DNA of 32,352 nucleotides from Candidatus Aminicenantota bacterium (GTDB taxonomy: Bacteria > Acidobacteriota > Aminicenantia > UBA2199), in assembly GCA_029938635.1 (NCBI GenBank), contig JAOZUQ010000007.1, positions 1 to 32,352 of the forward strand, given 5' to 3'. The position numbers and the translations under genes were made by a program. Positions 6,583 to 22,567 of this stretch are shown here, in pieces. The notes below the pieces were generated by a model that searched no databases, was not told the origin of the DNA, and saw nothing but the letters and a program-made list of their open reading frames with translations. Numbering within the stretch: the first letter of the stretch is position 1; each line of letters starts with the position of its first letter.

Positions 6583-6725
6583 TTTTTCCTCCTTTTTTGC
6601 AAGTCCATGCTTAATAAATTTTATAATTTCTTTTTTATTTCCTTTTATCTATTTTCAATAGAGGAATTTTTTAAAATATAATTTTTACTTTTCTAATATA
6701 AAATCCCCTTTAGATTCTTTCATTT

Positions 6726-7482: not shown

Positions 7483-8448
7483 TTAATGTACATTATTGTT
7501 CGTAATACCCTGATTATGGAAATCAATATTTTTGTAATTAAATGATAGGTTCCTGATATCTTCTAGAGTAGTATGATCAACAGCTTCAGTTCCTAACTCA
7601 ATACATCTCTTTGAAAACCAAAAGTCATACCATCTAATATTTTCGACTCTTGGTTTGATGATAGCCACATTGGAATCATTATGAATATATACAAATTTAT
7701 CTTTATTGTTTTTAACAACCCTAAGAGCATGCCCAATGTTTTTAAATCCTTCAGGAAGTATACTATGAACTTTATCTGAAATTCTCCCAAAAGAAACAAC
7801 ATCGCTTAAATAAGGTATCTGATAAATATTTTGTAGTAAATTCTTGGAAAACTCTATCAGTGTTATAAAGTGATTGTTTTTTTTATCAGTTGAGGAACTG
7901 ACATCAACAGCAATTACAAGATCAGCCCCCAGATCAAATGCTGTTTGTATGGGAAGAGGATTAACAAGAACACCGTCAACCAGCCTTCTATTATCTATTT
8001 CCACCGGTGAGAAAACACCCGGGAATGCTGAACTTGCTAAAATTGCATTTGATACCGGTCCTTTATTTATAAGTATTTCATCTCCTGTTTCAATATCAGT
8101 AGCGACAATAGTTAAAGGAATTTCTAAATCAGCAAAGTATTTCTGTTGTGTAATGATTGAAAAAAATCTCTCTACTTTCTTTTTAGAAAATATCCCTCTG
8201 GGAAGTATAATATTTACCATCTTTAATATTTTTATCCATCCGGTCTTATGTGCGATTTTTTCTAACTCGTAAATACTATATCCTGCCGCATATCCGGCTC
8301 CAACTAAAGCTCCAAAACTTGTTCCTACAATAAAATCTATTTTTATGCCTGCTTCATATATAGCTTTAAGTGCTCCTAAATGAGCATATCCACGAACTCC
8401 TCCACCCCCAAGAACAAGTCCGATCTTAAAGCCTTTACTATTTTGCAT
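7483..8448 (-). CDS. Patatin-like phospholipase/lipid hydrolase (RssA/YchK type)
   Basis: The patatin fold is clear. The oxyanion loop GGGGVRGYAHLGAL is at residues 14-27, the nucleophile motif GTSFG has Ser44, and the catalytic Asp158 is in VDGVLVNPLP. The family hydrolyses acyl esters of lipids with a Ser-Asp dyad. There is no signal peptide, so it is probably cytoplasmic or on the inner face of the membrane. I chose the ATG at 8446-8448 because AAGGAG lies nine bases upstream. The frame also extends to an ATG at 8455-8457 and to a TTG at 8466 that overlaps the acyltransferase stop. It is the last gene of the lipid operon, next to an acyltransferase, which suggests acyl-chain remodelling or turnover of the product. 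The substrate is unknown. Confidence 0.9.
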   Translation of the reverse strand: MQNSKGFKIGLVLGGGGVRGYAHLGALKAIYEAGIKIDFIVGTSFGALVGAGYAAGYSIYELEKIAHKTGWIKILKMVNIILPRGIFSKKKVERFFSIITQQKYFADLEIPLTIVATDIETGDEILINKGPVSNAILASSAFPGVFSPVEIDNRRLVDGVLVNPLPIQTAFDLGADLVIAVDVSSSTDKKNNHFITLIEFSKNLLQNIYQIPYLSDVVSFGRISDKVHSILPEGFKNIGHALRVVKNNKDKFVYIHNDSNVAIIKPRVENIRWYDFWFSKRCIELGTEAVDHTTLEDIRNLSFNYKNIDFHNQGITNNNVH

Positions 8449-8462
8449 TTTTTTCATCTCCT

Positions 8463-9050
8463 TCAATATATTTTTTTCATATAAGATTTAGCTATGTCTT
8501 CTAGAATTTTTTTATTTAGTCTATTTATTTCTGAGCAATAAATCGGCTTCCCTATTTGCACTTCGAGTTTCTTTAATCTGGGGAATTTTGCTCCAAGTGG
8601 TAACGCTTTGTTTGCCCCTTTGATTTTCATGGGAATAATTGGAACTACTGTCTTTACTGCAAGATATGCAGCTCCGGATTTTGTTGAAAAATCATCTTTT
8701 CCGTTAGTGATTTTCCCGGAAGGGAAAATCCCCAAAACTCCTCCTGTTTGCAAAACTTTTATAGCCTTTCTTATAAGTTTAATACTACTGCCGTTGTTTT
8801 GATTAGGAATAGCCCCAAGTCCTTTTAGAACACTACCTACGAAAGGTTTTCTGAAAAGATAAGCGGCAGATATAAATGTTATTTTCGGGTTAACAATTGC
8901 TGTAAGAATAAATCCATCTAAAAAGCTTGAATGGTTTGCAACAACGATAAAAGGGCCGGTCTCTGGTATATTTGAACTCTCAGATACTTTCAATCTGAAA
9001 ATCAATTTAAAAACAATCAAACTCAAATTTTTTACTACAAAATATAACAA
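8463..9050 (-). CDS. PlsC-family acyltransferase (1-acyl-glycerol-3-phosphate acyltransferase-like)
   Basis: This is a 195-residue PlsC domain with an N-terminal hydrophobic segment. Motif I is NHSSFLD (His40 and Asp45, the H-X4-D catalytic pair). Motif III is FPSG at 109-112 where most relatives have FPEG, and the usual Thr-Arg after it is Lys-Ile. A late VPIIPMKIKG segment matches motif IV. The family moves an acyl group from acyl-ACP or acyl-CoA to a hydroxyl or amine of a lipid at the inner membrane. The changed motif III suggests an acceptor other than lysophosphatidate. The start appears to be TTG, preceded by GGGAG at good spacing. It sits between the amino-lipid synthase and the patatin gene, so it may add the second acyl chain to that product. 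Confidence 0.85.
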   Translation of the reverse strand: MLYFVVKNLSLIVFKLIFRLKVSESSNIPETGPFIVVANHSSFLDGFILTAIVNPKITFISAAYLFRKPFVGSVLKGLGAIPNQNNGSSIKLIRKAIKVLQTGGVLGIFPSGKITNGKDDFSTKSGAAYLAVKTVVPIIPMKIKGANKALPLGAKFPRLKKLEVQIGKPIYCSEINRLNKKILEDIAKSYMKKIY

Positions 9051-9107
9051 AATATTTCTCCCTGATCGCTGAGGACCAATTTCAAAATAAAAATGTTTTT
9101 TAGATAA

Positions 9108-10289
9108 CTATATAATTCCCAGAGCTTTTCCGCCCTTTTTAAAGCCCTCCAGAATAAACTCAAGATCTTCATCTGAATGAGTTGCAGAAAAAGAAGTTCT
9201 AATTAGTGTCTCTTCAGGTGGAACAGCTGGAGCAACTACAGGATTAGTAAATATTCCGAATTCTTTTAAAAAATACCATAACTTAAATGTCTTCTCTTGA
9301 TCATTAATTAAAACGGGAATTATTGGAGATTCGGAATTACCTGTATCATATCCCATTGCTGAGAACTCTCTGATCATTGTTTTTGTAATCTCCCAAAGAC
9401 GTTCTCTTCTCCACGGTTCAGTTTTAATAATCTCAAGAGCCATATCAGCTGCTGCTATAGCTGCAGGTGTAATAGATGCAGAAAAAATAAGTGACCTTGC
9501 CATATGTTTTATATACTGTATAACCTTTTTGTCTCCCGCCACAAAACCACCTAAAGAGGCAAAGGCTTTTGAAAAAGTAGTGGTTATCAAATCAACCTCA
9601 CCCTCCATTCCAAAATGTTCACATGTTCCTCTTCCGTTCTTCCCCATTACCCCGACACCATGTGCATCATCAACAATTACTCTTGCATTATATTTCTTAG
9701 CTATTTTGATTATTTCAGGAATATTTGCAAGATCGCCTTCCATACTAAACACACCATCAACAATGATTACTTTACCCTTATCATCAGGGATTCTCTTAAT
9801 TTTCTCCTCCAGGTCATTCATATCGTTATGATTAAATTTTACAATTTTGGAAAAGGATAATCTTGCAGATTCCATTACTGAGGCGTGTACCAAGCGATCA
9901 ACCAAGATTATATCATTTCGCCCGGCAACTGCAGGAATAACCCCCAAATTAACCTGGAATCCGGTTGAGAAAGTCAAAGCTTCATCTCTTCCCATAAAAT
10001 CAGCAAGTTTTTTCTCTATATCAACATGAAGAGAATAAGTACCATTAAGAAATCTTGAACCACATGTAGAGGATCCGAATTTATCTGTTGCATCTTTAGA
10101 TGATTTCTTTATCCTCTCATCATCAAAGAGTCCAAGATAATTGTTTGATCCAACCATAAGTGTTTTCTTACCGCCAACCCATACATAATTACCCTCAACA
10201 TTATCTATTTGTGTAAAATAGGGATACAACCCTGAAGCTTTTGCTTCTTCTGCTCGTGTAAAATTAAAACATTTTTCAAAAACATCCAT
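9108..10289 (-). CDS. Alpha-oxoamine synthase of the serine palmitoyltransferase-like clade
   Basis: This 393-residue PLP enzyme condenses an amino acid with an acyl thioester and releases CO2. The PLP lysine is Lys241 in TTFSKAFASLGGFVAG; DDAH at 207-210 supplies the Asp and His that hold PLP. The N terminus (EEAKASGLYPYF, then GSNNYLGL) and the FSKxFASLGG motif resemble Bacteroidetes-type serine palmitoyltransferase and cysteate acyltransferase more than BioF or Kbl. There are no bioA, bioB, bioD or tdh genes nearby. It follows the barrel gene after 27 bases and has AGGAG before its ATG. Neighbours are an acyltransferase, a patatin and a lipid-type exporter, so I infer it makes a sphingoid or sulfonolipid-like base. 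The amino acid used (Ser, Cys, cysteate, Gly or Ala) cannot be read from the sequence; BioF/Kbl activity remains possible. Confidence 0.85.
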   Translation of the reverse strand: MDVFEKCFNFTRAEEAKASGLYPYFTQIDNVEGNYVWVGGKKTLMVGSNNYLGLFDDERIKKSSKDATDKFGSSTCGSRFLNGTYSLHVDIEKKLADFMGRDEALTFSTGFQVNLGVIPAVAGRNDIILVDRLVHASVMESARLSFSKIVKFNHNDMNDLEEKIKRIPDDKGKVIIVDGVFSMEGDLANIPEIIKIAKKYNARVIVDDAHGVGVMGKNGRGTCEHFGMEGEVDLITTTFSKAFASLGGFVAGDKKVIQYIKHMARSLIFSASITPAAIAAADMALEIIKTEPWRRERLWEITKTMIREFSAMGYDTGNSESPIIPVLINDQEKTFKLWYFLKEFGIFTNPVVAPAVPPEETLIRTSFSATHSDEDLEFILEGFKKGGKALGII

Positions 10290-10316
10290 TTATTACTCCT
10301 TATGATTTTGTAGACA

Positions 10317-11690
10317 CTAAAAATTGAATTTCAACCCAAAAAAGACTTCATCGAGATCTTTAACTTTTCCGAATACTGTCGAATCTTTACCATCTAACAA
10401 TCTTATACCTAAACTGATTTCTATATTATCTATAGGTTTAAAGGTTATTGAAGGGGAATAAATAAAAGCATAATTATTTTTCAAATCTTTGAAATCCTTT
10501 ATTTCAATTCCTCCTGTTAGTGGCATTATCTTTATTTTTTTGTCCATCAATTCCCATTCCATACCAAACATAAAATAATCTTCCAGATTTTCTGCTCCTC
10601 TCTCATGAACAAATCCGTGAAGATATTGGAAATTTAAATAAATCCCATTTTTGAATGTATAATCGGCTCCGATTACATATTTAACGTATGGTTTGTTATC
10701 CAGAGCAATTGAATCAAACATTCCCATTCCAAGAGAAGTAAGATCAGAGATCATCATTATCTCTTCAGGAAAAGTGACAGCTACCTCTGCCCAAACGCCA
10801 ATTTGACCAAGAGCTCCAGCCAGATCTGCCCCGACAATATTCAATTCCGGAAAAATAAGTTCACTATAGATATCAACTGTACCTGGAATAGCTGTTGGGG
10901 TTAATACTGATTTATTAAGAAGAGGTAAACTATCTCTTGTGTGAACATAGCTTAAAGATAAATCGAAATCCAAAATGCTCTTTGAGACTTTAATTCCAGT
11001 TATAGACCCCTCTTTTATGTTGTTTTCAGGTAAAATAATTTTATCAGATAGGTTACCAACAATTATACCATCAGGGAGATCTCCTGAAGGTGACAGAGCT
11101 GCTGCCAGATCTCCCAATGGCAAAATAGAAGGTGTAAATTGAGGGAAATACACTAGTACAATTGTAAAATCTCCAGGATAAAACGAAATTTTTATTCCGT
11201 CAGAACCTAAATGCCTTCCAAAATCCCATATGTCTTCGAGATCATTTGGATTAAGGTTATCGGTTGGATTCAGTTTGTCTCCAGTTCCCCATGCGACCCG
11301 TTGTTTCCCTATGCGAATATCGATATTGTCAGAAACAACTCCCAGAAGATCTACATAAGCTTCCTTTATCACTAAATCCCATGGAGAAATTTTGTTCCTA
11401 TCAACCAGATCAATGCTACTTTGTACATTTGAAAACCCTAATGATCTCACCCATAACTCACTATAAAAGTGAACTTTTTCAAGAGGTTTTACTTCGGCTT
11501 TAAGATCAAGTCTGTATTCTTTCCAAGAAAATTTATTCCCATTTTCCAAGAGTAATCTGTTGTCAGTCTGAAAATACCCACTCCATTTCAACTCTTTCTC
11601 AGAGGACTCATCCTCTTGAGCATTTAAGATTGGAGTAAAAGAGAATAAGAATATTAAACATATCAGTATAAAGAATTTTTTATTTTTCAT
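10317..11690 (-). CDS. Outer-membrane beta-barrel of the RND/LolA-like lipid route (DUF1302-like)
   Basis: The protein has 457 residues, a signal peptide (MKNKKFFILICLIFLFSF..NAQ) and many alternating amphipathic strands ending in Phe (KFNF at the C terminus). The signature IRIGKQRVAWG...NPTD lies at residues 125-144. The same signature is in the barrel at 21302-22567, and both mature N termini begin with a WSGY/FSGY strand. I start at the ATG at 11688-11690: it begins the signal peptide, has AAGGAT upstream, and lies 19 bases past the carrier stop. The open frame runs further upstream to 11762, but that would overlap the carrier gene and lack a signal peptide. It probably receives or inserts the cargo at the outer membrane. 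It could also be a porin-like uptake protein working in the opposite direction. Confidence 0.82.
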   Translation of the reverse strand: MKNKKFFILICLIFLFSFTPILNAQEDESSEKELKWSGYFQTDNRLLLENGNKFSWKEYRLDLKAEVKPLEKVHFYSELWVRSLGFSNVQSSIDLVDRNKISPWDLVIKEAYVDLLGVVSDNIDIRIGKQRVAWGTGDKLNPTDNLNPNDLEDIWDFGRHLGSDGIKISFYPGDFTIVLVYFPQFTPSILPLGDLAAALSPSGDLPDGIIVGNLSDKIILPENNIKEGSITGIKVSKSILDFDLSLSYVHTRDSLPLLNKSVLTPTAIPGTVDIYSELIFPELNIVGADLAGALGQIGVWAEVAVTFPEEIMMISDLTSLGMGMFDSIALDNKPYVKYVIGADYTFKNGIYLNFQYLHGFVHERGAENLEDYFMFGMEWELMDKKIKIMPLTGGIEIKDFKDLKNNYAFIYSPSITFKPIDNIEISLGIRLLDGKDSTVFGKVKDLDEVFFGLKFNF

Positions 11691-11709
11691 AGCAATCCTT
11701 AACTGGTTT

Positions 11710-12462
11710 TTATCTACTAAGATATCTTTTTGAAAATTTTGCATCGGATAAATTCGAATCAAATTTTACATCTGAAATTATCATCTTTGTTTTATGCTTT
11801 TTTCTCAGATCTTCCATTTCAGATTCTTTAGATATCCAATACTCATTAATTTTTTCAATTTTAGATCTTCTCATTATCTTATAAAGCTTTTTCCCTTTAT
11901 TATAATGTTCGATCATGACTGGATAAAAATTATCTGTTCTTACCCACATGATTAATTTCGAATATTCTGTTTTTATCCCTTTCTTAGGATCAAGCTGAAG
12001 AACATACGCATTCTCTTCTGTCTTTAGTAATTTCGAATTATACTTATCTGCAAACCTGATAGCTTCCATATCTTCGTAAGAAAAATCTGTACCGGCAAAT
12101 TTTGTGTTTTTCACATGAGATGCAATTCTTCTAACTTTTTTAAATGCCGGCAAGTAAAAGTACATAACATCTTTGGGAAGTGACAGAAATGCAATTCCTT
12201 TCTGATCAGCCGGTGAAAGAAATTTAACTATTCTTTTATCACTCCCTTTCTGAAGCATACTCATCTTACGTATTTTTTCTTTTCCTTTCTTGTCAATTAA
12301 TACTAATTTGATTGTCAAAGCCTGATCTTTAGGAGCATTGATAACATTATCTGCTTTTTCAAGGATTTGTAATGCTGAAATCTGGTTGTTTGCACTCAAA
12401 CCTTGTGACAAAAATATGCTAATACTAAAGATAATTAAACTTAATACAGTGATTTTTTTCAT
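11710..12462 (-). CDS. LolA-like periplasmic carrier (outer-membrane lipoprotein-sorting family)
   Basis: The protein has 250 residues. A signal peptide ends near residue 24, followed by a half-barrel of strands like LolA/LolB. Features shared with the homologue at 17344-18105 include a YFYLPAFKKVRRI segment (101-113), the GTDFSYEDM motif (124-132), and a late WxSKESEMEDLRKK region. It lacks a lipobox, so it is soluble in the periplasm. Proteins of this fold bind acyl chains in a hydrophobic cavity and shuttle them between membranes. It directly follows the exporter gene (TAA then ATG, no gap) and has AAGGAG before its start. It is the likely carrier between the exporter and the barrel encoded next. 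Confidence 0.88.
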   Translation of the reverse strand: MKKITVLSLIIFSISIFLSQGLSANNQISALQILEKADNVINAPKDQALTIKLVLIDKKGKEKIRKMSMLQKGSDKRIVKFLSPADQKGIAFLSLPKDVMYFYLPAFKKVRRIASHVKNTKFAGTDFSYEDMEAIRFADKYNSKLLKTEENAYVLQLDPKKGIKTEYSKLIMWVRTDNFYPVMIEHYNKGKKLYKIMRRSKIEKINEYWISKESEMEDLRKKHKTKMIISDVKFDSNLSDAKFSKRYLSR

Positions 12463-14775
12463 TTATTTTTTCTCCTTTTTGATATTATTTAAATGATTTT
12501 TTGTTTTATTTAAAATTCGACTAAATTCCCCAATGAAATTTGCCTTTGTTACCAAAATTACGGCAGGAAGTATTGTTATGGCACCAATTCCTGAGCCGAC
12601 CATTGTAAGTGCGATCAACACTCCAAATCGTTGAAGAGGGATCATGTTGGCTAAAACCAGGACCAGAAAACCCATCATAACAGTTATTACATTTATCAAA
12701 ATAGCTCTGCCGGTTGTTTCTAAAGTTTTCTGGAGTGCATTTAATCCATTTTTATGTTTTTTTGTTTCTAATTTAAATCTGCTGACAAAATGTATCGAAT
12801 AATCAATCCCGATTCCAATAGATATACTTCCCACCAGGACTGTTGCTATATCAAGCGGGATTGAAAAGTAACCCATAAACCCAAACAAAACCAAGAGTGT
12901 AAACCCTATAGGTAACAACCCTATAATTCCTCCAATGAATGAACGTAATAAAAAAACGAGCGAAATAAAAACTAATATAATTGCCAGCACCATACTCTGG
13001 AACTGGCTATTCATAATGCTATCATCAAGGTTTTGATATATTAATGGCATTCCTGACTGACTAAAGCTAATGACTGAGCTATCTAAACTTTCAATAAATT
13101 TATCTACAGCTTTTACCAGATCCTTCAACTTTTTTGTGTCTGCATTAGCGATTGTAGCTTGGATAATGGCTTCAGTTTTTTCATCATTAACAAGTTGGCT
13201 TAATACATCTTCTCCATCCAAAAGAAACCATAAGTTAGTAACCTTTTCTTTGCTGTCCGGAATCATCCGGCCTTCACCCATAACATCAGACATCTCAATA
13301 ATTAGATCTGCAACTGATTGAGCATTACTAACATTGTCTTGAGAATCTAAAAAATCTCCCATTAGTTTCATTTCATTGAGGATAATTGGATCTTGTATAT
13401 CGCCTTTAACCAGAATTTGAATTGGGATTGAACCCCCAAACTTTTTCACCATTAATTCTTCAGTATTTCTTATCTCACTTCCTTTTTTGAAGTAATCAAT
13501 CATATCAACCTTACGCTCGATTCTAGGGATTCCAATGATACCAATAATAGCAATTATAACTCCACCAACTACAATCAGTTTAGAATTATTCAACACCCAT
13601 GTTCCAAATTTATCCATAAAAATGATGATCCCTGTTTTCTTCTCTGTACTTTTCATCATTGACTTTAATCTACTTTTTACCGGAAGTAAGTATAAAACTG
13701 AGGGGACAAAAGTGATCGAAATAATTAATGAAAATAATACTCCAAGACTTGAAAATAGTCCGAATTCCTGGATCAATGTTAAATATGAACCAAAAATGAA
13801 TGCAATAAAACCCACTGCTGTAGTTATCGCTGTCAGAATTACCGGGATCCCTATTTTCCCAAGTGCATTTATGGATTTTTTCTTTTTATCAGTATTATCT
13901 TTTATCTCTTCATCAAATATGTTGATGACATGAATACAATATGCAGTTCCAATTGCAATTAAAATTATTGGAATTATATTGGAGATCGCTGTAAGAGAAA
14001 CATTGAAAATACTCATTGTTCCAAGAACCCATATTGTGCTCATTGAGACTGAAATCAGTGGAAGAAACACTCCCCTGAAAGATCGAAAACTCAAATACAA
14101 TGAAAGGAATATAAGTGTCAATATTAACGGAATTAGAAATTTAAGATCATTTAAAACAATTTTACTCATTTCGATCATTTGAAATGGCATTCCTCCAAAA
14201 TAGTGATTTCCTTTAAGATCAATATCGGAAATAAGCTTTTTCAGGTTTTTTGCAACTTCAATTTTATTAAAATCTTCATCAATCCTGCAAATGATCAGAG
14301 TAGTTTTTGAATCATATGATACTAATTTATCTCTATACATATCTTTAGAAAGAACATAACTTTTCAACTCTTCTAATTTCTTCTCTGCTTTTGGAAGATC
14401 ATATTCGTCTATAAGACGTCCTATTTCTATTCCGTCAATTCCCTTTTTAATATCTAAAACATTTGTTAGGCTTGTAACATAAGATACCCCGTCAAGAAAT
14501 TTGATTTTGTCTGTTAAATCTGCAATATTTTTGATTGTATTCTTGTTGAATATTTCATCTGTTTCTATTGCAATCAAGGCAAGAGAATTTCCCCCATACT
14601 CATCTCCAATATAATTAAATAACTTTACATCAGGATCATTTTGAGGGAGAGCACTTATTATATCAGGGTTTATCTTAAGATCCTTAAGGAAAAACCCAAA
14701 AATTAAAGTCAATACCAATGTTACAAATACTACCAGTTTACTATTCTTTATCACAAACTCAGAAAATTTTTTCAT
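12463..14775 (-). CDS. RND-superfamily lipid exporter (MMPL/HpnN-like)
   Basis: The protein has 770 residues in two similar halves, each with one helix, a periplasmic domain of about 170 residues, and five more helices. The second half has a proton-relay-type motif, GIGIDYSIHF, near residue 657. The matching place in the first half reads GTAYCIHV (near 278) and lacks the Asp. MMPL/HpnN-type members move lipids such as hopanoids or mycolate glycolipids out of the inner membrane. There is no TolC or HlyD partner here; instead a LolA-like carrier and a barrel follow directly. That trio resembles the RND-DUF1329-DUF1302 sets known in Proteobacteria. GGAGG lies 10 bases before the ATG. Confidence 0.9.
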   Translation of the reverse strand: MKKFSEFVIKNSKLVVFVTLVLTLIFGFFLKDLKINPDIISALPQNDPDVKLFNYIGDEYGGNSLALIAIETDEIFNKNTIKNIADLTDKIKFLDGVSYVTSLTNVLDIKKGIDGIEIGRLIDEYDLPKAEKKLEELKSYVLSKDMYRDKLVSYDSKTTLIICRIDEDFNKIEVAKNLKKLISDIDLKGNHYFGGMPFQMIEMSKIVLNDLKFLIPLILTLIFLSLYLSFRSFRGVFLPLISVSMSTIWVLGTMSIFNVSLTAISNIIPIILIAIGTAYCIHVINIFDEEIKDNTDKKKKSINALGKIGIPVILTAITTAVGFIAFIFGSYLTLIQEFGLFSSLGVLFSLIISITFVPSVLYLLPVKSRLKSMMKSTEKKTGIIIFMDKFGTWVLNNSKLIVVGGVIIAIIGIIGIPRIERKVDMIDYFKKGSEIRNTEELMVKKFGGSIPIQILVKGDIQDPIILNEMKLMGDFLDSQDNVSNAQSVADLIIEMSDVMGEGRMIPDSKEKVTNLWFLLDGEDVLSQLVNDEKTEAIIQATIANADTKKLKDLVKAVDKFIESLDSSVISFSQSGMPLIYQNLDDSIMNSQFQSMVLAIILVFISLVFLLRSFIGGIIGLLPIGFTLLVLFGFMGYFSIPLDIATVLVGSISIGIGIDYSIHFVSRFKLETKKHKNGLNALQKTLETTGRAILINVITVMMGFLVLVLANMIPLQRFGVLIALTMVGSGIGAITILPAVILVTKANFIGEFSRILNKTKNHLNNIKKEKK

Positions 14776-14873
14776 TAACTAAAACCTCCACTATTTTATT
14801 ATCCAGTCTCATTATCCAATTCTGTACTGACTTTGAAGATGAGCCTCCAAATACAGTTCCAAGAAATTATTTT

Positions 14874-15512
14874 TCAGGTTTTTCTCCTGTAAATTCTATA
14901 CAAAACAAATACAACTATAAGTTCAGCAATTACCAATAGCTCCCAATGATAAGGGGATGGCATTTCCTTTAATAAGATGCTTCGAGAATCAAAAACAAAT
15001 GATATAAATATTACGGTAGAAGCTGTTATTAAAAACATCCAATCAATTTTATTGATTCTCAATATATAAGTTTTGCTTTTTAAATATGCTAAAAATAAAG
15101 CAAATAAGATCATTGTTATTGAAACCATTATTGGAGCCAGGACAGGCCCTACCCATGGCACAGGTATTAGAAAAAGAAGATCGTCTGTAATAATTGAAGC
15201 TGGCCATCCTAATGTAATTTTCAACCAGATATAATAGAAGATGTCCCAAATTCCGAAAGTATAAATAAAAAAACAAAGTTTTTCTAAAAAATCTCTCCCC
15301 GAAATCATACTTACGGTAATAAGCATTAATATTGTTGAGATTTCTCTTCCTATTTCGAATAGAAAAAGATTTGAGGGGATGTCTTTTAATGGAAAACAAA
15401 ATCCTTCAGGGTATATAATAGCTCTTAGGTATATAACTACAGCCGCTTCTAAAAAGCCCATTGCAATTCCAAAAAGAGTTATTTTCCAGAATTTTTTTAT
15501 TAATATTTTCAT
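14874..15512 (-). CDS. Six-helix membrane protein of unknown function
   Basis: The protein has 212 residues and about six predicted membrane segments: roughly 10-30, 47-68, 78-97, 112-145, 157-174 and 192-206. It has polar residues in or near helices that look conserved-type: GFLEAAVVIYLR, GREIST, WDIFYYIWLK, WPASIITDD and FLIPVPWVGPVLAP. I recall similar unnamed membrane proteins in several phyla but no assigned activity. It lies between the TetR gene and the exporter, with gaps near 100 bases on each side, so it is probably part of the lipid operon. The acidic and aromatic residues near the membrane could form an active site, but that is speculation. Confidence 0.75.
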   Translation of the reverse strand: MKILIKKFWKITLFGIAMGFLEAAVVIYLRAIIYPEGFCFPLKDIPSNLFLFEIGREISTILMLITVSMISGRDFLEKLCFFIYTFGIWDIFYYIWLKITLGWPASIITDDLLFLIPVPWVGPVLAPIMVSITMILFALFLAYLKSKTYILRINKIDWMFLITASTVIFISFVFDSRSILLKEMPSPYHWELLVIAELIVVFVLYRIYRRKT

Positions 15513-15613
15513 GTCCTCATCTTAATTTCAATAATTCTCAACTCCAGTATTCAGGTATTTTATTCCGGATTTAGACTCATTAAGTATTAAAATTGAAAAA
15601 TTCATATTGAGAA

Positions 15614-16189
15614 TCACCTTTTTACCAGCCCAAAAAACAACACTTCTAAAAGGTTATCAATATTTTTTTTTGTTTTTACAAAGTTACTTTCTGCAATCCA
15701 TGGATATTCCAAGCCTTTTAATGCAGTTACAATTGCAAAGGATGTAACATCTAAGTCTTTAACAACAAATTCTCCATCGCTTATCCCTTCTCTTAATAGT
15801 GTTTTGATTAATTCTATTTCAAATTCAAAGTAATCTTTTCTCAATTTTTCGATAAAACTATAGTTATCAAGATATTCGTCTTTCAACGCACTGTAAAAAT
15901 TTGCCAAATCATGAATAATCTTCATTCTGGTAACAACATATGCTTTAAGTTTCTCCTTTGTAGTATTTTTGCTGTTTATAGCTTTCATGAGTTCTATTTT
16001 CAAAACTTCAGTTTCTCTTTTGATAACTTCTTCGAAAATATCCTCTTTACTTGAGAAATAGTGATACAAAGAACTTTTTGCTTTACGTGCTGCCTTTGCA
16101 ATTTCATTCATGGTAGTTTTATTGAATCCGAATTTTGCAAATACAGATCTAGCAGCATTAATAATAATTTCTTTAATATTTTTATCCAT
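15614..16189 (-). CDS. TetR-family regulator of the lipid synthesis/export operon
   Basis: The protein has 191 residues. The TetR helix-turn-helix spans about residues 7-53 (KTTMNEIAKAARKAKSSLYHYF, then SSKEDIFEEVI). The C-terminal domain has no recognised ligand type, though long-chain acyl compounds are plausible given the neighbours. GGAG lies eight bases before the ATG. It is the first gene of the minus-strand unit running to the patatin gene. A promoter at 16242-16269 and a GACC/GGTC dyad at 16217-16241 lie upstream, so it probably represses itself and the operon. Confidence 0.88.
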   Translation of the reverse strand: MDKNIKEIIINAARSVFAKFGFNKTTMNEIAKAARKAKSSLYHYFSSKEDIFEEVIKRETEVLKIELMKAINSKNTTKEKLKAYVVTRMKIIHDLANFYSALKDEYLDNYSFIEKLRKDYFEFEIELIKTLLREGISDGEFVVKDLDVTSFAIVTALKGLEYPWIAESNFVKTKKNIDNLLEVLFFGLVKR

Positions 16190-16216
16190 TGCTAATACTC
16201 CTATTTAAAACACATG

Positions 16217-16241
16217 TCGACCATAATGGTCGAAAGGTCGA
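16217..16241. promoter_or_regulatory. Candidate TetR operator with three GGTCGA-type half-sites
   Basis: TCGACCAT and ATGGTCGA form a perfect 8-bp inverted repeat with a one-base spacer (16217-16233). A third half-site, GGTCGA, follows at 16236-16241. The array covers the predicted start site just downstream of the -10 at 16242-16247. Confidence 0.6.
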
Positions 16242-16269
16242 ATTATACACTCTGCTTGTTTTTTGTCAA
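16242..16269 (-). promoter_or_regulatory. Sigma70-type promoter of the lipid operon
   Basis: On the minus strand, TTGACA (16264-16269) and a perfect TATAAT (16242-16247) are 16 bases apart. It reads into the TetR gene at 16189 and on to the exporter and enzymes. The GACC/GGTC operator overlaps the predicted start. Confidence 0.65.
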
Positions 16270-16358
16270 GGATTAATTTAGTTTTTTTACAATTTAAAAT
16301 ATATTTTAAGTCTGATATTTGTTTTTTCTGATCTGAAACAGTTATATAAACCTGACTG

Positions 16359-16500
16359 TTATTTAATCTTTAATTTTCTTGATTTTATAAAATTGCTTAC
16401 CGTAAGTCTATTAACACTTAAAATTCTGGCGAGAGCACTTGCAGAGATATTTTTGTTTAATAATTCTTTTATTGTTTCTTCTTTTCCGGATAGATCAGTT
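16359..16500 (-). pseudogene. Serine recombinase (resolvase/invertase) C-terminal fragment
   Basis: A minus-strand frame of about 46 codons ends at TAA (16359-16361). It reads SGKEETIKELLNKNISASA, then LARILSVNRLTVSNFIKSR. This matches the short DNA-binding helix-turn-helix at the end of Tn3 resolvases and DNA invertases. The catalytic domain is missing: the frame meets a stop just upstream, where a transposase fragment on the other strand begins. It is the truncated remnant of a transposon resolvase. Confidence 0.5.
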
Positions 16501-16612
16501 CTCACAGTTTGGATCAAAGGTTATTCCTTCAACTGTAAGAGATGCTACTTATGTATTGGATGCAATTCTTGATAATGAGACCGAATTAAATAAACTTGAA
16601 TTAGCTACATGA
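16493..16612 (+). pseudogene. Tn3-family transposase (TnpA) internal fragment
   Basis: A plus-strand frame of about 39 codons reads DQFSQFGSKVIPSTVRDATY then VLDAILDNETEL, which resembles the segment of Tn3-family TnpA just before the conserved HTTDTAGYT region. It then diverges to a TGA at 16610-16612. There is no start codon and no N- or C-terminal part. It abuts the resolvase fragment on the opposite strand, so the two mark the scar of a deleted Tn3-type element. The rest of the 519-base gap between the TetR genes holds only the promoters and operators listed here. Confidence 0.5.
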
Positions 16613-16650
16613 AGTTCGTTGTTTTTCGCTCCGTTACTATCGAAACCCTA

Positions 16651-16679
16651 TTGACAAGGTCTGAAAAAAATACTATATT
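16651..16679 (+). promoter_or_regulatory. Sigma70-type promoter of the TetR-LolA-ABC operon
   Basis: TTGACA (16651-16656) and TATATT (16674-16679) are 17 bases apart. The predicted start near 16686 falls in the inverted repeat at 16684-16703. The promoter lies just beyond the Tn3 scar. Confidence 0.65.
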
Positions 16680-16683
16680 TATA

Positions 16684-16703
16684 TTGACCGAACGGTCGGT
16701 CAA
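16684..16703. promoter_or_regulatory. Candidate TetR operator (perfect 8-bp inverted repeat)
   Basis: TTGACCGA and TCGGTCAA are perfect inverted repeats around a 4-base spacer. The site lies between the -10 and the ATG at 16709 and covers the predicted start site. Its GACC/GGTC core resembles the operator at 16217-16241. Confidence 0.6.
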
Positions 16704-16708
16704 GCAAA

Positions 16709-17347
16709 ATGAGCGCATTAATAGTTAACAAAACAAAAAAAAAGGAAGATATAATCCTTGCTGCTTTAAAAGTGTTTGAAGAAAAGGGATTATCTAATTC
16801 AACTATAAAAGAAATTGCAGAGACGGCAGGTATTGGGAAGGGTACTATATATGAATATTTCAAGGATAAGAATGAGATAATTCACAATTCATTTTTTTAT
16901 TTTCAGAAATTTTTTGAAATGGATATGGGGAAAATACTACTTTCTAATGAGAAAGGGTCTTCAAAACTTAAAAATTTGATAAGATCAATAATGAGCGTAC
17001 TAAGAAGTGAAAACAACGATTATCTTGATCTTATGTTTGATTTTTGGGCGGAAGGAATAAAAGGGCATGAAAAGGGAGTTATGCTAACAGAAATGAACAA
17101 ATTCTACAGATCATATCGGAAATTGTTTGAAGATGTCCTTAGAGAAGGAATTAAAGATGGAAGTATTCGTAAAAATATTGATCCTTTTGAAACATCAAGT
17201 ATTATTATCGGAACATTGGATGGAGTAATGGTACAATGGATACTGGATAAAGAAGTAATTGATTTAAAAAAAATAGAAAAAAATCTGATTAACCTGATCC
17301 TGAATGGTGCCGGTGTCAGTTTAATAAAAAAGGAGGAATCCAAATGA
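16709..17347 (+). CDS. TetR-family regulator of the LolA/ABC trafficking operon
   Basis: The protein has 212 residues, with a TetR DNA-binding domain at about 10-56 (STIKEIAETAGIGKGTIYEYF, then KDKNEI). The C-terminal domain (about 80-200) has the DFWAEGIKG and LREGIKDG segments common in TetR proteins but no known ligand pocket I can name. The ATG is only about 23 bases from the predicted transcription start and has no clear ribosome-binding site, so its translation may be weak. Its stop overlaps the carrier start (ATGA). It heads a plus-strand operon and is probably autoregulated through the dyad at 16684-16703. Confidence 0.88.
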   Translation: MSALIVNKTKKKEDIILAALKVFEEKGLSNSTIKEIAETAGIGKGTIYEYFKDKNEIIHNSFFYFQKFFEMDMGKILLSNEKGSSKLKNLIRSIMSVLRSENNDYLDLMFDFWAEGIKGHEKGVMLTEMNKFYRSYRKLFEDVLREGIKDGSIRKNIDPFETSSIIIGTLDGVMVQWILDKEVIDLKKIEKNLINLILNGAGVSLIKKEESK

Positions 17348-18105
17348 AAAATTTGAAAATTTTATTTTTCTGCTTAACTCTTTTCATTTCTGTTTCTATT
17401 AGTATCAAAGCAAATGATGATCCTAAAGCCAGGGAAATAGTGAATAAAGTGGATGAACTTTACAGGAGCGGTTCCAGTTATGGATTGTTTGAGATGGAGA
17501 TTATTACACCACATTGGAGCAGGAAACTGAAAATTAAATCATGGAGTCTCGGGAAAGAAAAAACATTTATGAGGATACTCGAGCCGAAAAAGGAACGGGG
17601 GATGGCGACATTAAAGCTTGACCGGGAGATGTGGAACTATCTTCCGAAGACAAATAAAGTCATGAAGATCCCGCCTTCTATGATGATGGGGTCCTGGATG
17701 GGCTCTGATTTTACTAATGATGACCTTGTCAAGGAGTACACTTATCTTGAAGATTATAATTTTGAAATAATCAAACTTGAAGGTGGGGACGCATCACACA
17801 CCTATGTAAAATGTATTCCTAAAGAGGGATTACCGATAATATGGGGACATATAATAATTGAAGTCAAAGAGAAGGAGAATATTCCTGTTTCCCAGAAATA
17901 CTTTGATGAGAAAGGTAACCTGATGAGAGAGATGTATTTTAAAGAAACTAAGAAATTCGGTAATAGAGTAATACCTTCCGTAATGGAATTAATTCCAACA
18001 AAAAAGAAGGGAAAAAAGACAATTATCAGATATATCGATGCAAAGTTTGGTCATAAAATCGACAAGAATATATTTGCATTAAGAAATTTAAGAAAAAGGA
18101 TATAA
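17344..18105 (+). CDS. LolA-like periplasmic carrier paired with an ABC transporter
   Basis: The protein has 253 residues and a signal peptide ending near residue 24 (SIKAN). The body matches the outer-membrane lipoprotein-sorting family: MWNYLPKTNKVMKIP at 96-110 and GSDFTNDDLV at 120-129. It corresponds segment by segment to the carrier at 11710-12462. There is no lipobox, so it is soluble in the periplasm. Its start overlaps the TetR stop and GGAGG lies seven bases upstream. The permease gene begins one base after its stop. It probably takes a lipidated cargo from the ABC transporter and hands it to the barrel encoded at the operon end. Cargo could be lipoprotein or free lipid. Confidence 0.88.
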   Translation: MKNLKILFFCLTLFISVSISIKANDDPKAREIVNKVDELYRSGSSYGLFEMEIITPHWSRKLKIKSWSLGKEKTFMRILEPKKERGMATLKLDREMWNYLPKTNKVMKIPPSMMMGSWMGSDFTNDDLVKEYTYLEDYNFEIIKLEGGDASHTYVKCIPKEGLPIIWGHIIIEVKEKENIPVSQKYFDEKGNLMREMYFKETKKFGNRVIPSVMELIPTKKKGKKTIIRYIDAKFGHKIDKNIFALRNLRKRI

Positions 18106-18106
18106 A

Positions 18107-19324
18107 ATGATCATATTCAAGATCGCGTTCAGAAGTATTTTCCGGCAGAAAAGGAGAAGTATCCTGACAGCTCTAAGCATGTTTGGAGGATTCTTCCTAT
18201 CGGCGTTTTTTATTGGATTTTCCGATGGTTCATATAATCAGATAATCAATATGTTTACAAGAAATAATCTCGGACATATACAGATACATGAATCCACCTA
18301 TCTGGATAAACCTTCCCTTTATAAAACCATTAGAGATTATGAGGATATTTATAAAAAGCTTCAAAGTATAAAAGAGGTGGATGCGTTTACTCCGAGGATA
18401 TATTCTGCAGGAATTGTTTCGGTCGGAGAAAAGAGCACAGGAGTTAAGATTACGGGTGTTGATCCTAAAAGGGAGAATATTGCCACTAATTTTAACAAAA
18501 AAATCTATGAAGGAGATGTATTTTCAGATGAAAATTCATATGAAGTAATAATCGGTAAAGGGCTTGCAAAGATATTAAAAGCTTCTCCCGGTGATGATCT
18601 TGTTGTGATCAGTCAGGGTGCAGACGGATCTATTGCAAATGATTCCTTTAAAATTGTAGGGTTGTCAAAAAGTGGGAATGAGTTGGAGGACAGGATCACA
18701 ATGTATATACCCATTAAAGTGGCCCAGGAACTTCTTACGCTGCAAGGCAGGATACATGAGATCGCTATAACAATAAAAAAGCTTAATACTGTTCCTGAGA
18801 TAACTGAGCTGATCAATGAGAAGATCGGTTCAGATAAGATCATTGCAGAGCCCTGGCAGGCATTTGCTAAATCATTCTATAATGCTATGCAGGCTGACGT
18901 GGAAGGGATGTGGGTAATGCTGGTGATCATCATGTTTGTGGTTGCCGTGGGTGTGCTGAATACGGTGCTCATGTCTGTGCTGGAAAGGAGAAGGGAATAC
19001 GGGGTCCTCAAGGCAATGGGAACCAAACCCGGGGATATTATCAAGTTAATTCTGGTTGAGATCAATATTCTGGCAGTAATATGTATTGCATTAGGATCGA
19101 TCGCAGCTCTTGGGATCAATTACTATTTAAGCATACATGGAATAACACTGGCGGAACCGTTTTCCTATGGAGGAATGTACTTCCGGCATATGACTTCTGA
19201 GATCAATTTAAGAAGTTTTGTTATACCTGCTGTTATTGTGATCCTTTCTGCAACTGTTGTAGGATTCTTTCCTGCATTAAAAGCTGCAAAAACTGATCCT
19301 GCAAAAGCAATGAGGACGCACTGA
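18107..19324 (+). CDS. FtsX/MacB-type ABC transporter permease 1 (LolC/E-like)
   Basis: The protein has 405 residues. One N-terminal helix (about 20-42) is followed by a periplasmic domain of about 220 residues and three C-terminal helices (about 270-400), the LolC/LolE/MacB topology. ERRREYGVLKAMGTKPGDI is the coupling segment after helix 2 that contacts the ATPase; the end (PALKAAKTDPAKAMR) is also typical. The family does not move cargo across the membrane by a channel; it uses ATP-driven shape change to lift substrates from the outer leaflet or periplasm. It pairs with the permease at 19347-20570 as a heterodimer, like LolC with LolE. Confidence 0.92.
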   Translation: MIIFKIAFRSIFRQKRRSILTALSMFGGFFLSAFFIGFSDGSYNQIINMFTRNNLGHIQIHESTYLDKPSLYKTIRDYEDIYKKLQSIKEVDAFTPRIYSAGIVSVGEKSTGVKITGVDPKRENIATNFNKKIYEGDVFSDENSYEVIIGKGLAKILKASPGDDLVVISQGADGSIANDSFKIVGLSKSGNELEDRITMYIPIKVAQELLTLQGRIHEIAITIKKLNTVPEITELINEKIGSDKIIAEPWQAFAKSFYNAMQADVEGMWVMLVIIMFVVAVGVLNTVLMSVLERRREYGVLKAMGTKPGDIIKLILVEINILAVICIALGSIAALGINYYLSIHGITLAEPFSYGGMYFRHMTSEINLRSFVIPAVIVILSATVVGFFPALKAAKTDPAKAMRTH

Positions 19325-19346
19325 TGAGATCGCGGAGGAGAGAATA

Positions 19347-20570
19347 ATGTTTTATCTTAAACTGGCGTGGAGAAATATTTTAAGGAATAAACGGAGAACA
19401 ATTATTGCAAGTATTGCGATCGGTGTCGGTCTGGCATCACTGATACTTACCGATGGACTAATGATAGGGATGAAGAACAATCTTGTGGAATCTGCCACAT
19501 CAACACTTCTAGGGCAAGCACAGATTCATAATAAAGATTTCAGGATCACACGGGATATTGAAAAAACAATTGTGGCAAAGGATGATATAACAAGAAAGCT
19601 TGAAAGTGACCCGCTTGTGACTGCATATAGTGAAAGAATTGTGTCACTTGGTATGATCACATCACCGTCCACCGCTGAATCAGTTATTGTGTACGGTATA
19701 GATCCGGAAACCGAAAAGGAACTATCAAAAATTGATGACAGAATTATTGAGGGGACCTATTTTGGAGAGAATAAAGGGCGTGAAATAATTATCGGAAGCA
19801 AGCTGGCTGAAGTTCTGGAAGTTACTCTTGGTGACAGGATAGTAATCACGGTTGCTCAGGCGTTTGGAGGTGATCTGTCGCAGGAGATGTTCAGGGTCAG
19901 CGGGATATACTATTTTGATGTTAAAGAGATGGACAATGGTTTTGCTTTTATAAGAAAAGATAAAGCCGGAACGATGCTTAATATAGGGAATAATATTCAT
20001 GAGATAGCAATAAAATTTTCTGATATCAGAATTGCTGAGAAAAAAGATCTCTCTTTCTGGGGGGAATATAGTACAGGGAACAATGAAGCGGTCAGTTGGA
20101 TCACCATTATGCCCGAGCTTAAGAACATCCTTGATATGACAGATATTTCCCTTTACATGATGGGTGGGATCCTGTTCTTTGTTGTAATCTTCGGTATCAT
20201 AAATTCACTTTTCATGTCCCTTTATGAAAGGATGTTTGAATTCGGGATCCTGAAGGCGGTTGGAACACGTCCATCAGGATTGAGAAAACTGATCATTTTC
20301 GAAGCAGGCTGGTTGGCCATTGTCAGTATAGTTATAGGAGTTATTATCGGTTTTGTGCTCCATCTTCTACTTATCAGGAATGGAATAGACTACGGCGGGA
20401 TAGAGTTCGCAGGTACTTTTATGCATGATAAGATATATCCTGTTATGAATATATCTCAATATATGAAGTACCCTGTATTTGTATTTATCTTTACTATAGT
20501 GGTTGGTTTATACCCAGCCTGGGTTGCAGGGAAAATGAAGGTCACAGATGCTTTACGCAAAAGTATGTAA
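19347..20570 (+). CDS. FtsX/MacB-type ABC transporter permease 2 (LolC/E-like)
   Basis: The protein has 407 residues with the same plan as its neighbour: helix 1 at about 20-42, a periplasmic domain to about 270, then three helices. The coupling segment YERMFEFGILKAVGTRPSGL and the end YPAWVAGKMKVTDALRKSM are typical. It is related to but clearly different from permease 1, which supports a heterodimer. GGAGGAG lies ahead of the ATG, 22 bases past the first permease. The 52 bases between its stop and the ATPase start contain the GGAGG of the ATPase gene and nothing else obvious. Confidence 0.92.
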   Translation: MFYLKLAWRNILRNKRRTIIASIAIGVGLASLILTDGLMIGMKNNLVESATSTLLGQAQIHNKDFRITRDIEKTIVAKDDITRKLESDPLVTAYSERIVSLGMITSPSTAESVIVYGIDPETEKELSKIDDRIIEGTYFGENKGREIIIGSKLAEVLEVTLGDRIVITVAQAFGGDLSQEMFRVSGIYYFDVKEMDNGFAFIRKDKAGTMLNIGNNIHEIAIKFSDIRIAEKKDLSFWGEYSTGNNEAVSWITIMPELKNILDMTDISLYMMGGILFFVVIFGIINSLFMSLYERMFEFGILKAVGTRPSGLRKLIIFEAGWLAIVSIVIGVIIGFVLHLLLIRNGIDYGGIEFAGTFMHDKIYPVMNISQYMKYPVFVFIFTIVVGLYPAWVAGKMKVTDALRKSM

Positions 20571-20622
20571 AATTATGAATAAAATTAAAAAAGCTATATC
20601 TCTTTTTGAATGGAGGATCTAA

Positions 20623-21315
20623 ATGGAACAAAAAACTATTATTTCTACAGAAAATCTTGTTAAGACATATAAAGATAACGGGATGGAGGCAAAAGCGGTC
20701 AGAGGAATAAGTCTTGAAATAACTTCGGGTGAATTTACAGCAGTAGTGGGTCCGTCAGGTTCTGGTAAAACAACATTTCTTAATCTCATCTCCGGCCTGG
20801 ATACACCGACATCGGGGACAGTTCAGATAAATAACAGGCTGATTTCCGAAATGAAAGGGAGAGAGCTTTCGGATTTCAGAAGAGATAATATAGGATTTGT
20901 TTTTCAATCATACAATCTGATCCCTGTACTGACTGTGGAAGAAAATATTGAGTATATTATGTTGCTTCAAAATGTGCCTAAGAGAGAAAGGCATGACAGG
21001 GTTATTAAGATCCTCGACAAAGTGGGTTTAAATGGTATGGAATCCCGGAGGCCAACCCAATTATCAGGAGGGCAGCAGCAGAGGGTTGCAATTGCAAGAG
21101 CAATGGTCTCGAATCCGACACTTATTCTTGCTGATGAACCTACAGCGAATCTTGACTCGAAAATGGGTTCCGAACTTCTTGAAATGATGAAAGTGCTGAA
21201 TGAAACGACAGGGATGACATTCATATTTTCTACTCATGACCAAATGATAATGGAGAGAGCAAGACGTCTTATCACACTCAAGGATGGAATTGTAAAAACA
21301 GATGAGATCAGGTAA
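20623..21315 (+). CDS. ABC transporter ATPase (LolD/MacB type)
   Basis: The protein has 230 residues, the usual LolD length. Walker A GPSGSGKT is at 43-50, the Q-loop in VFQSYNLIP is near 93-101, the signature LSGGQQQR is at 147-154, Walker B LILADEP is at 167-173, and the switch His is in STHD near 204. It powers the two FtsX-type permeases encoded upstream. It has GGAGG before the ATG. The start of the barrel gene overlaps its last 14 bases, so the two are coupled. Confidence 0.95.
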
Positions 21316-22567
21316 CAGCAAATTTATCAGATCATTTATACTTTTAGTATTTCTTGTTATTACACCTCTGATTTCATCAGAGTTTAATTTTTCAGGATAT
21401 TATAAATCATTTTTTACTCTGCTGATACCTGAGGATATTGTCTCCGAAGGCGGCTTCGAGGAGATCCCTGATCTGGGGATGTATTCAGGAAAGATCAGAT
21501 TAAAGATGTTTTATTCCCCGGCGGAATGGATCAGCTTAAGGGCTGAGTATGAACTTACTCCTACAATACTCGACACTGTCGCTCTAAGTTCATTTCAGAT
21601 GCTTTCAGGAGTAAATCCTCCGGGGTACAGGATCGGAGATATTTCTGAGAAATTATATCCGGGCGGCAAAAATCCTGAAGGTGGTTTTTATATAACTCAG
21701 AATCTCGACAGGTTCTTTGCAACTCTTTCATTCAACTTTGCTGATATTTATATCGGACGTCAGGTCATATCATGGGGAAGTTCCTATGTCTTTAATCCTA
21801 CCGATATAATCTCACCTTTTAACTTTAATGAGATCGACAAAGAGGAAAAGAGAGGAGTTGATGCTCTGAGAATCAGAATTCCACTTGGAACAATGGATGA
21901 GCTGGATATTGGATATGTATTCGGGGAAAATCCCGGAATTGAAAATAGTGCTTTCTTTATTCGAGGTAAATTTAATTTGTTCAAATCTGATCTTTCACTT
22001 CTGATATTGGGATTCAGACAGAACTTATTGCTTGGCTTTGATATGTCCGGTTCACTCGGAGGAGCAGGGTTGAGGCTGGAAACAGCATATGTTCTTGACA
22101 AAGTTATGGACAAAGAACTTCCTGAAGAGTTGAAAAACAATTATTTTCGTCTCTCGCTGGGACTTGATTATAATTTCAGTGATAAAATATACGGATATTG
22201 TGAATACCATTTTAATTCACCGGGATCTCTTGATGCGGATAATTATCTATCCTTATCCATAAATAATGCATATTCGGATGGGAGTGTATATCTTCTCGGG
22301 AGGCATTACATTTCTGCAGGAATGACTTATCAATTGCACCCGCTTATTCCGTTTAGTGCTTTTGTTATTTATAATATTTCAGATAAATCAATAATAATTT
22401 CTCCATCTCTGGAATATAATATAAGTGAAAATATTTATTTATCTTTTGGAGCATTCCTCAGTGCTGGAAAAGGAATTCAATTTACAAATATAGATTCTCT
22501 GAATCTGAGATCTGAGTTTGGTGCTTATCCAAACCTCATTTTTACTTCTTTTCGAATATATTTCTGA
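21302..22567 (+). CDS. Outer-membrane beta-barrel of the ABC/LolA-like route
   Basis: The protein has 421 residues with a signal peptide (cleavage near residue 26) and amphipathic strands to a final aromatic residue (FRIYF). The signature YIGRQVISWG...NPTD at 150-168 and the first strand FSGYYKSF match the barrel of the RND operon at 10317-11690. It is the last gene of the ABC operon. A barrel at the end of an ABC-LolA set suggests an outer-membrane acceptor or exit for cargo, which the classic LolCDE pathway lacks. The start ATG lies inside the ATPase gene and directly precedes the signal peptide; no better start is seen. Confidence 0.82.
   Translation: MRSGNSKFIRSFILLVFLVITPLISSEFNFSGYYKSFFTLLIPEDIVSEGGFEEIPDLGMYSGKIRLKMFYSPAEWISLRAEYELTPTILDTVALSSFQMLSGVNPPGYRIGDISEKLYPGGKNPEGGFYITQNLDRFFATLSFNFADIYIGRQVISWGSSYVFNPTDIISPFNFNEIDKEEKRGVDALRIRIPLGTMDELDIGYVFGENPGIENSAFFIRGKFNLFKSDLSLLILGFRQNLLLGFDMSGSLGGAGLRLETAYVLDKVMDKELPEELKNNYFRLSLGLDYNFSDKIYGYCEYHFNSPGSLDADNYLSLSINNAYSDGSVYLLGRHYISAGMTYQLHPLIPFSAFVIYNISDKSIIISPSLEYNISENIYLSFGAFLSAGKGIQFTNIDSLNLRSEFGAYPNLIFTSFRIYF

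Follow-up and report, generated by a model that had tools for sequence, protein, structure and literature searches.

A pair of divergent operons joining LolA-like carriers and porin-type barrels to RND or ABC motors in a Candidatus Aminicenantota genome

Described systems and the two operons

Several gene clusters that join a transporter to a periplasmic protein and an outer-membrane protein are already known, among them cassettes of a resistance-nodulation-division (RND) transporter with DUF1329 and DUF1302 proteins, iron-regulated operons of Bacteroidetes, and an ATP-binding cassette (ABC)-LolA-Omp85 cluster of Borrelia. Here we analyzed two divergent operons in a 32,352-nucleotide stretch of DNA (the window) from a Candidatus Aminicenantota bacterium (GCA_029938635.1), a 3.05-Mb draft genome in which the window forms the first 32 kb of a 69-kb contig (JAOZUQ010000007.1). 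Each operon holds a TetR-family regulator, a LolA-like periplasmic carrier and an outer-membrane barrel, combined with an RND motor in operon 1 and with an ABC motor in operon 2; every gene that an earlier note on this DNA had named was recovered where it had been placed. We assign a probability of roughly 0.6 to the reading that both operons provide a three-step route from the inner to the outer membrane for hydrophobic cargo, and that they represent two anciently separated branches without recent trading of parts.

The Castellaniella AmeABCD system (PMC6394551) resembles operon 1 in placing an HAE3-like RND protein, a LolA-superfamily periplasmic protein and a DUF1302 barrel in a single operon. 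However, the operon 1 carrier belongs primarily to PF17131, and operon 1 (16189-7483) has no AmeC-like second periplasmic protein and carries lipid-synthesis genes instead of genes for terpene catabolism. The P. gingivalis operon PG1178-PG1181 (PMC10434189, PMC10470040) has an apparently similar TetR-MMPL-LolA-like-hypothetical layout, a likeness drawn by description and not by sequence, but there ABC ATP-binding proteins come next rather than lipid enzymes. In Thalassolituus, TOL_3187 is an MMPL-LolA-like fusion that is expressed with the neighboring porin TOL_3188 and induced on the n-C28 alkane (PMC6304351). The Borrelia cluster BBJ23-BBJ29 (PMC13078400) likewise groups a MacB-like ABC transporter, a LolA-like protein and an outer-membrane barrel, although its barrel is reported to be of the Omp85 type, as opposed to the porin type found here. 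Operon 2 shares with the LolCDE-LolA-LolB pathway a LolC/E-like permease pair, a LolD-like ATPase and a LolA-fold carrier, but it stays under the family cut-offs, lacks LolB and adds a barrel. MmpL3, HpnN and BstABC also employ an RND motor for membrane lipids, and MmpL3 and HpnN were recovered by sequence; to our knowledge, none of these motors has been described with a PF17131 carrier and a DUF1302 barrel. In the open-access literature searched, we found no account that unites both motor classes or pairs the ABC branch with this barrel. Our survey brings the RND-DUF1302 cassettes and the ABC-LolA-barrel clusters together as one family, in which the ABC branch gains a barrel and a single ancient motor change would replace repeated swapping.

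Operon 1 runs on the minus strand (16189-7483) in the order TetR, small membrane protein, RND transporter, carrier, barrel, serine palmitoyltransferase (SPT)-like synthase, PlsC-type acyltransferase and patatin. Operon 2 occupies the plus strand (16709-22567) in the order TetR, carrier, two permeases, ATPase and barrel, and in both operons the majority of genes abut or overlap. The operon 1 motor (12463-14775, minus strand) is an HAE3-like RND/MMPL transporter (PF03176, E=1.7e-52) whose best-matching RND family is TIGR00921 (HAE3), at 283.4 bits against a cut-off of 351.9; the HpnN hopanoid exporter model gave 133.6 bits against 751.85. The GxGxD[YF] motif, which is expected in proton-coupled RND proteins, occurs in 99 of 104 relatives, and among the solved RND relatives are transporters of sterols, hopanoids and mycolates.

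The operon 2 motor comprises two FtsX/LolC-E-like permeases with MacB_PCD and FtsX domains (18107-19324 and 19347-20570, plus strand) and a LolD-like ABC ATPase (20623-21315, plus strand; PF00005, E=3.7e-39). The permeases scored 142.8 and 135.3 bits with the lolCE equivalog model (cut-off 362.45) and have LolF and LolE as their closest solved structures, while the ATPase reached 220.1 bits with the LolD model (cut-off 307.75) and has intact Walker A, LSGGQ and Walker B motifs. Elsewhere, ABC sets with a single FtsX permease were found in L009 and six relatives (L223-L227, L237), where the permease presumably works as a homodimer like LolF.

Carrier and barrel families and their co-occurrence

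Both carriers have a signal peptide and belong to the LolA_like family PF17131 (operon 1, 11710-12462, minus strand, E=1.5e-55; operon 2, 17344-18105, plus strand, E=2.8e-46), with scores of 188.1 and 157.9 bits, above the 30-bit gathering cut-off. They align at 25% identity in a two-sequence BLASTP comparison (E=5e-16), and their motifs, GTDFSYED and GSDFTNDD, fit the pattern G[ST]DF[ST]x[ED]D that the earlier note had given for them. The operon 1 carrier additionally passes DUF1329 (28.9 bits, cut-off 23.1). A profile of the five carriers in this genome that stand in carrier-motor-barrel sets (two RND, three ABC) matched the solved structures 9tp6, 3bk5, 4z48 and 3buu, which by name are lipoprotein-sorting or LolA-superfamily proteins. 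A sixth PF17131 match, on contig C84, is a stand-alone carrier-like protein with neither motor nor barrel nearby.

The kinship of the two barrels, also proposed at the outset, is seen most clearly at the level of profiles. The operon 1 barrel (10317-11690, minus strand; the listed open reading frame (ORF) opens at 11762, but translation more likely starts from the Met at 11690) and the operon 2 barrel (21302-22567, plus strand) both end in a C-terminal Phe. Pairwise they are weakly alike, and BLASTP aligns the signature region, WGTGDKLNPTDNLNP in operon 1 and WGSSYVFNPTDIISP in operon 2. When the 44 RND-type and the 17 ABC-type barrels were each made into a profile of their own, the two profiles matched over 358 columns (E=1.5e-38, probability 100), whereas the negative controls, a porin and a DUF6029 outer-membrane protein, both from the window, did not match the barrel profiles (probabilities 0.8-13). 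DUF1302 was matched by 40 of the 44 RND-type barrels (best 2.9e-30); the operon 1 barrel, which we place in the DUF1302 superfamily, itself scored 22.1 bits against a cut-off of 23.2. The operon 2 barrel had no NCBIfam match, and none of the 17 ABC-type members matched any Pfam family. The ABC branch is thus unrecognised by the databases searched (Pfam, NCBIfam), and only the profile comparison ties it to the DUF1302 barrels.

AlphaFold2 gave a confident model of the operon 1 barrel (predicted local distance difference test, pLDDT, 89.8; predicted TM-score, pTM, 0.83) and a fair one of the operon 2 barrel (pLDDT 74.3, pTM 0.74). In the PDB, the matches of both models are general porins, Occ channels or AlgE, with low TM-scores (0.4-0.57), and BamA/TamA (Omp85) proteins were absent among the 50 best listed PDB matches of either model. 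A sequence search of the PDB with the barrel profile returned nothing significant. Sequence and model together support a dedicated porin-type barrel, the component that the earlier note had described as missing from classic Lol.

The combination of carrier, motor and barrel recurs in many phyla and with either motor. Neither outcome that the earlier note had named as refuting its reading, unrelated carriers or barrels or a lack of conserved co-occurrence, was therefore borne out. A carrier-alignment scan of public genome contigs yielded 80 loci, in records from Bacteroidota, Cloacimonadota, WOR-3, Calditrichota, KSB1, Spirochaetes, Aminicenantes, Deltaproteobacteria and others; nearly all of those with sufficient flanks were RND-carrier-barrel sets, mostly preceded by TetR. 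Both motors were present in another 80 neighborhoods around PF17131 genes, taken from relatives and from the host genomes of the scanned loci. Among the 153 distinct carriers, 63 were well flanked (at least 5.5 kb on either side), and a barrel lay near all 63 and a motor within 4 kb of 62 (43 RND, 19 ABC), the remaining one having FtsX genes at 4.2 kb. Because the samples were picked via carriers, these figures describe co-occurrence given a carrier, not prevalence. Both motors were found in at least 15 of the 54 genomes with resolved carriers; one genome (G032, the host of L012) has 12 PF17131 matches, and its seven resolved sets employ both motors. The nearest relative of operon 1 lies in Candidatus Aminicenantes CSMAG_2431 (L011), of the same family as the window genome.

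A proposed lipid route, its cargo and rival explanations

In the proposed route, cargo would be lifted from the outer leaflet of the inner membrane, in operon 1 by the RND protein driven by the proton gradient and in operon 2 by the LolCDE-like ABC complex driven by ATP. The soluble LolA-fold carrier would then take the cargo through the periplasm, and the dedicated porin-type (DUF1302-superfamily) barrel would receive it at the outer membrane. Our analysis shows the gene content, homology, conserved clustering, tree topology and barrel fold, while the contact between carrier and barrel is inferred, as are the direction of export, the energy coupling and the cargo, these three from family knowledge and from the company the genes keep.

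The cargo of operon 1 is suggested by its three last genes, which lay inside the span covered by the earlier note and went unmentioned there. They encode an alpha-oxoamine synthase (9108-10289), a PlsC-type acyltransferase (8463-9050; PF01553, E=4.9e-24) and a patatin-like phospholipase (7483-8466; PF01734, E=3.4e-34), all on the minus strand. We call the synthase SPT-like because it falls below the cut-off of NF047600, the SPT model for the Cytophaga-Flavobacterium-Bacteroides (CFB) group (541.5 bits, cut-off 640), yet scores about 150 bits above other families (next family, 389). Upstream in the same operon lies a multi-span membrane protein of about 212 amino acids, labeled imp (14874-15512, minus strand), with no matches in Pfam or NCBIfam and hence no family assignment; it recurs with patatin/PlsC-type RND sets in six other loci (L014, L015, L022, L045, L205, L255).

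Gene content was surveyed in 101 RND-type and 39 ABC-type operons. The RND-type operons included PlsC (12), patatin (15), family 2 glycosyltransferase (GT2; 10), the small membrane protein (6), GNAT (5), SPT-like (3) and SDR (3) genes, whereas none of the ABC-type operons contained any of these; a FabH relative lay inside two of the 39. Fisher's test for the contrast gave p = 0.011 for patatin and 0.02 for PlsC, values that are uncorrected for multiple testing and for shared ancestry. In a Proteiniphilum locus (L057), the order is RND-carrier-FabH-methyltransferase-GNAT-SDR-PlsC-patatin-glycosyltransferase-barrel. Operon 1 most probably moves a membrane lipid that its co-transcribed SPT-like synthase, PlsC and patatin produce or modify, and this lipid would be sphingolipid-like or otherwise acylated.

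How non-lipopolysaccharide lipids are transported to the bacterial outer membrane is largely an open question. A 2024 study of Caulobacter sphingolipid enzymes reports that sphingolipids reach the outer membrane and that by then neither a flippase nor a transporter for them had been identified (PMC11087976). Because lipid-enzyme genes recur in RND operons and hardly in ABC operons, operon 1 is a testable candidate for a bacterial sphingolipid transporter, and with an SPT-like enzyme physically linked to all parts of an inner-to-outer-membrane route, the sphingolipid-transport question itself becomes testable. The more specific proposal, that operon 1 is a dedicated exporter of a sphingolipid or other SPT-derived aminolipid to the outer membrane and operon 2 its ATP-driven counterpart for a second lipid, is tentative and less likely than not. 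Were it true, the two would together define a two-engine system of carrier and barrel that exports lipids generally and spans many Gram-negative phyla.

Several observations weigh against a lipid-export role. The synthase stays under the NCBI cut-off for SPT, and in only three further sampled genomes (L011, L201, L211) is an SPT gene linked to the set, downstream of it; the full SPT-PlsC-patatin order was seen in the window genome only. Elsewhere in the genome, a paralogue 73% identical to the SPT-like synthase sits next to glycosyltransferase genes. The likeness of the barrel models to porins reaches low TM-scores only and reveals no hydrophobic conduit or lipid path. Finally, the similarly laid-out P. 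gingivalis operon ranks with the most strongly induced genes under iron/heme limitation (PMC10434189, PMC10470040), a response not expected of a plain role in membrane lipids; some members may therefore carry other cargo or answer envelope stress.

Other SPT-like loci were also recorded. The paralogue (contig C132, 92774-93952; L260) is followed by a GT2 gene, a WecA/MraY-type glycosyltransferase and an FAD oxidoreductase, an arrangement that is conserved across the family and resembles a distinct locus for glycolipid or polysaccharide. The RND-SPT-glycosyltransferase superoperon of L011 was left out of the evidence, since contigs in that genus break at its two similar SPT copies and the assembly may contain a chimeric join. 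An SPT fragment in another genome (G016, L280), with no PlsC or patatin nearby, is possibly the rest of the RND-linked copy.

Among the alternatives, efflux or detoxification survives best, although we consider it unlikely. TetR-controlled pumps would expel solvents, hydrocarbons or toxic amphiphiles, with the carrier acting as a periplasmic adaptor. A TetR gene within 70 of the 101 RND-type operons, the monoterpene efflux proposed for AmeABCD (PMC6394551) and the alkane induction of TOL_3187 and TOL_3188 (PMC6304351) all suit this explanation. However, the co-transcribed PlsC, patatin, SPT-like, GNAT, SDR and GT2 genes suit lipid synthesis better, and TetR is rare among ABC-type operons (6 of 39).

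It is less probable still that the sets are a specialised Lol pathway, in which motor and carrier would select certain lipoproteins for the barrel to put on the surface. The Borrelia ABC-LolA-Omp85 cluster has been read in this way (PMC13078400), and the operon 2 permeases and ATPase are nearest to LolF/LolE and LolD, respectively. Their scores nevertheless lie far under the LolCE and LolD cut-offs, the carriers are PF17131 proteins rather than LolA equivalogs, half of the family has an RND motor, which has no known role with lipoproteins, and the barrel models are porin-like, unlike Omp85.

Import or retrograde traffic, by which the sets would move hydrophobic nutrients or surplus outer-membrane lipid inward, is very unlikely. 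RND and LolCDE/MacB-type ABC motors are established to extract toward the periplasm, and the genes within RND-type operons are biosynthetic, not catabolic. In its favor, a porin-type barrel may serve as an entry route, and growth on alkane (PMC6304351) as well as iron/heme limitation (PMC10434189) induces related genes.

Motor history and local arrangement

The reading of two anciently separated export branches is further informed by the carrier and barrel trees. In a 140-carrier tree, the motor label needs a single change (mean after shuffling, 34), and a 72-carrier tree groups all ABC carriers in a single clade (support 97/92, recovered in 96% of bootstraps; shuffled mean 24). The barrel tree needs three motor changes, of which well-supported branches force one, and several long branches meet in it. 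Distances between carriers correlate with those between barrels (rho 0.80 within RND and 0.54 within ABC, in part through shared species history), and for 69 of 124 sets, against an expectation of about one, the set with the closest carrier also has the closest barrel. Because one motor change suffices on the carrier tree, motor, carrier and barrel have been inherited jointly since one ancient split. Recent module exchange, the earlier note's suggestion that the operons swapped motors around a common carrier and barrel, would agree with the adjacency of two operons of common carrier and barrel families and with the three changes on the barrel tree, but it is rejected for carriers by the single, well-supported change on their tree, the long branches blur the barrel tree, and the adjacency is missing in a congener, leaving this explanation the least credible.

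Four RND sets (L198, L230, L251, L254) have the order (TetR-)carrier-barrel-RND, and the 140-row tree places their carriers closest to those of the ABC sets; they may show the state that preceded the motor change.

The side-by-side placement, from which the earlier note argued, is not conserved. The congener (G001) shares synteny with the window across operon 2 and the genes downstream (74-92% identity), the sequence upstream of its operon 2 maps to another contig of the window genome, and operon 1 was not found (best RND match 30%), an absence that is uncertain in a draft 87% complete. Conserved adjacency was rejected on this comparison, and because operon 1 is absent beside a syntenic operon 2, the pairing appears to be local. 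The comparison also suggests that operon 1 and the neighboring TolC-MFP-AcrB pump lie in a segment gained in the window genome or lost in the congener.

Each operon begins with its TetR gene, at 15614-16189 on the minus strand in operon 1 (PF00440, E=6e-18) and at 16709-17347 on the plus strand in operon 2 (PF00440, E=9.8e-15); in several relatives of operon 2 (L212, L214, L215, L217, L218), too, a TetR gene comes before the carrier. Ahead of the operon 1 regulator, the palindrome TCGACCATAATGGTCGA (16217-16233; inverted repeat I4) is its probable operator, and ahead of the operon 2 regulator the inverted repeat TTGACCGA-ACGG-TCGGTCAA (16684-16703; I2) probably plays the same role, as judged from sequence and position. 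Between the two promoters, about 440 bp (16240-16680) are intergenic, with no ORF of at least 100 amino acids, and may be what is left of a lost gene. A complete HAE1 tripartite efflux set (1092-7316, minus strand) of TetR, TolC, membrane fusion protein (MFP) and AcrB-type RND genes immediately follows operon 1 downstream, and a similar TolC-MFP-AcrB set stands upstream of the RND set in another locus (L028).

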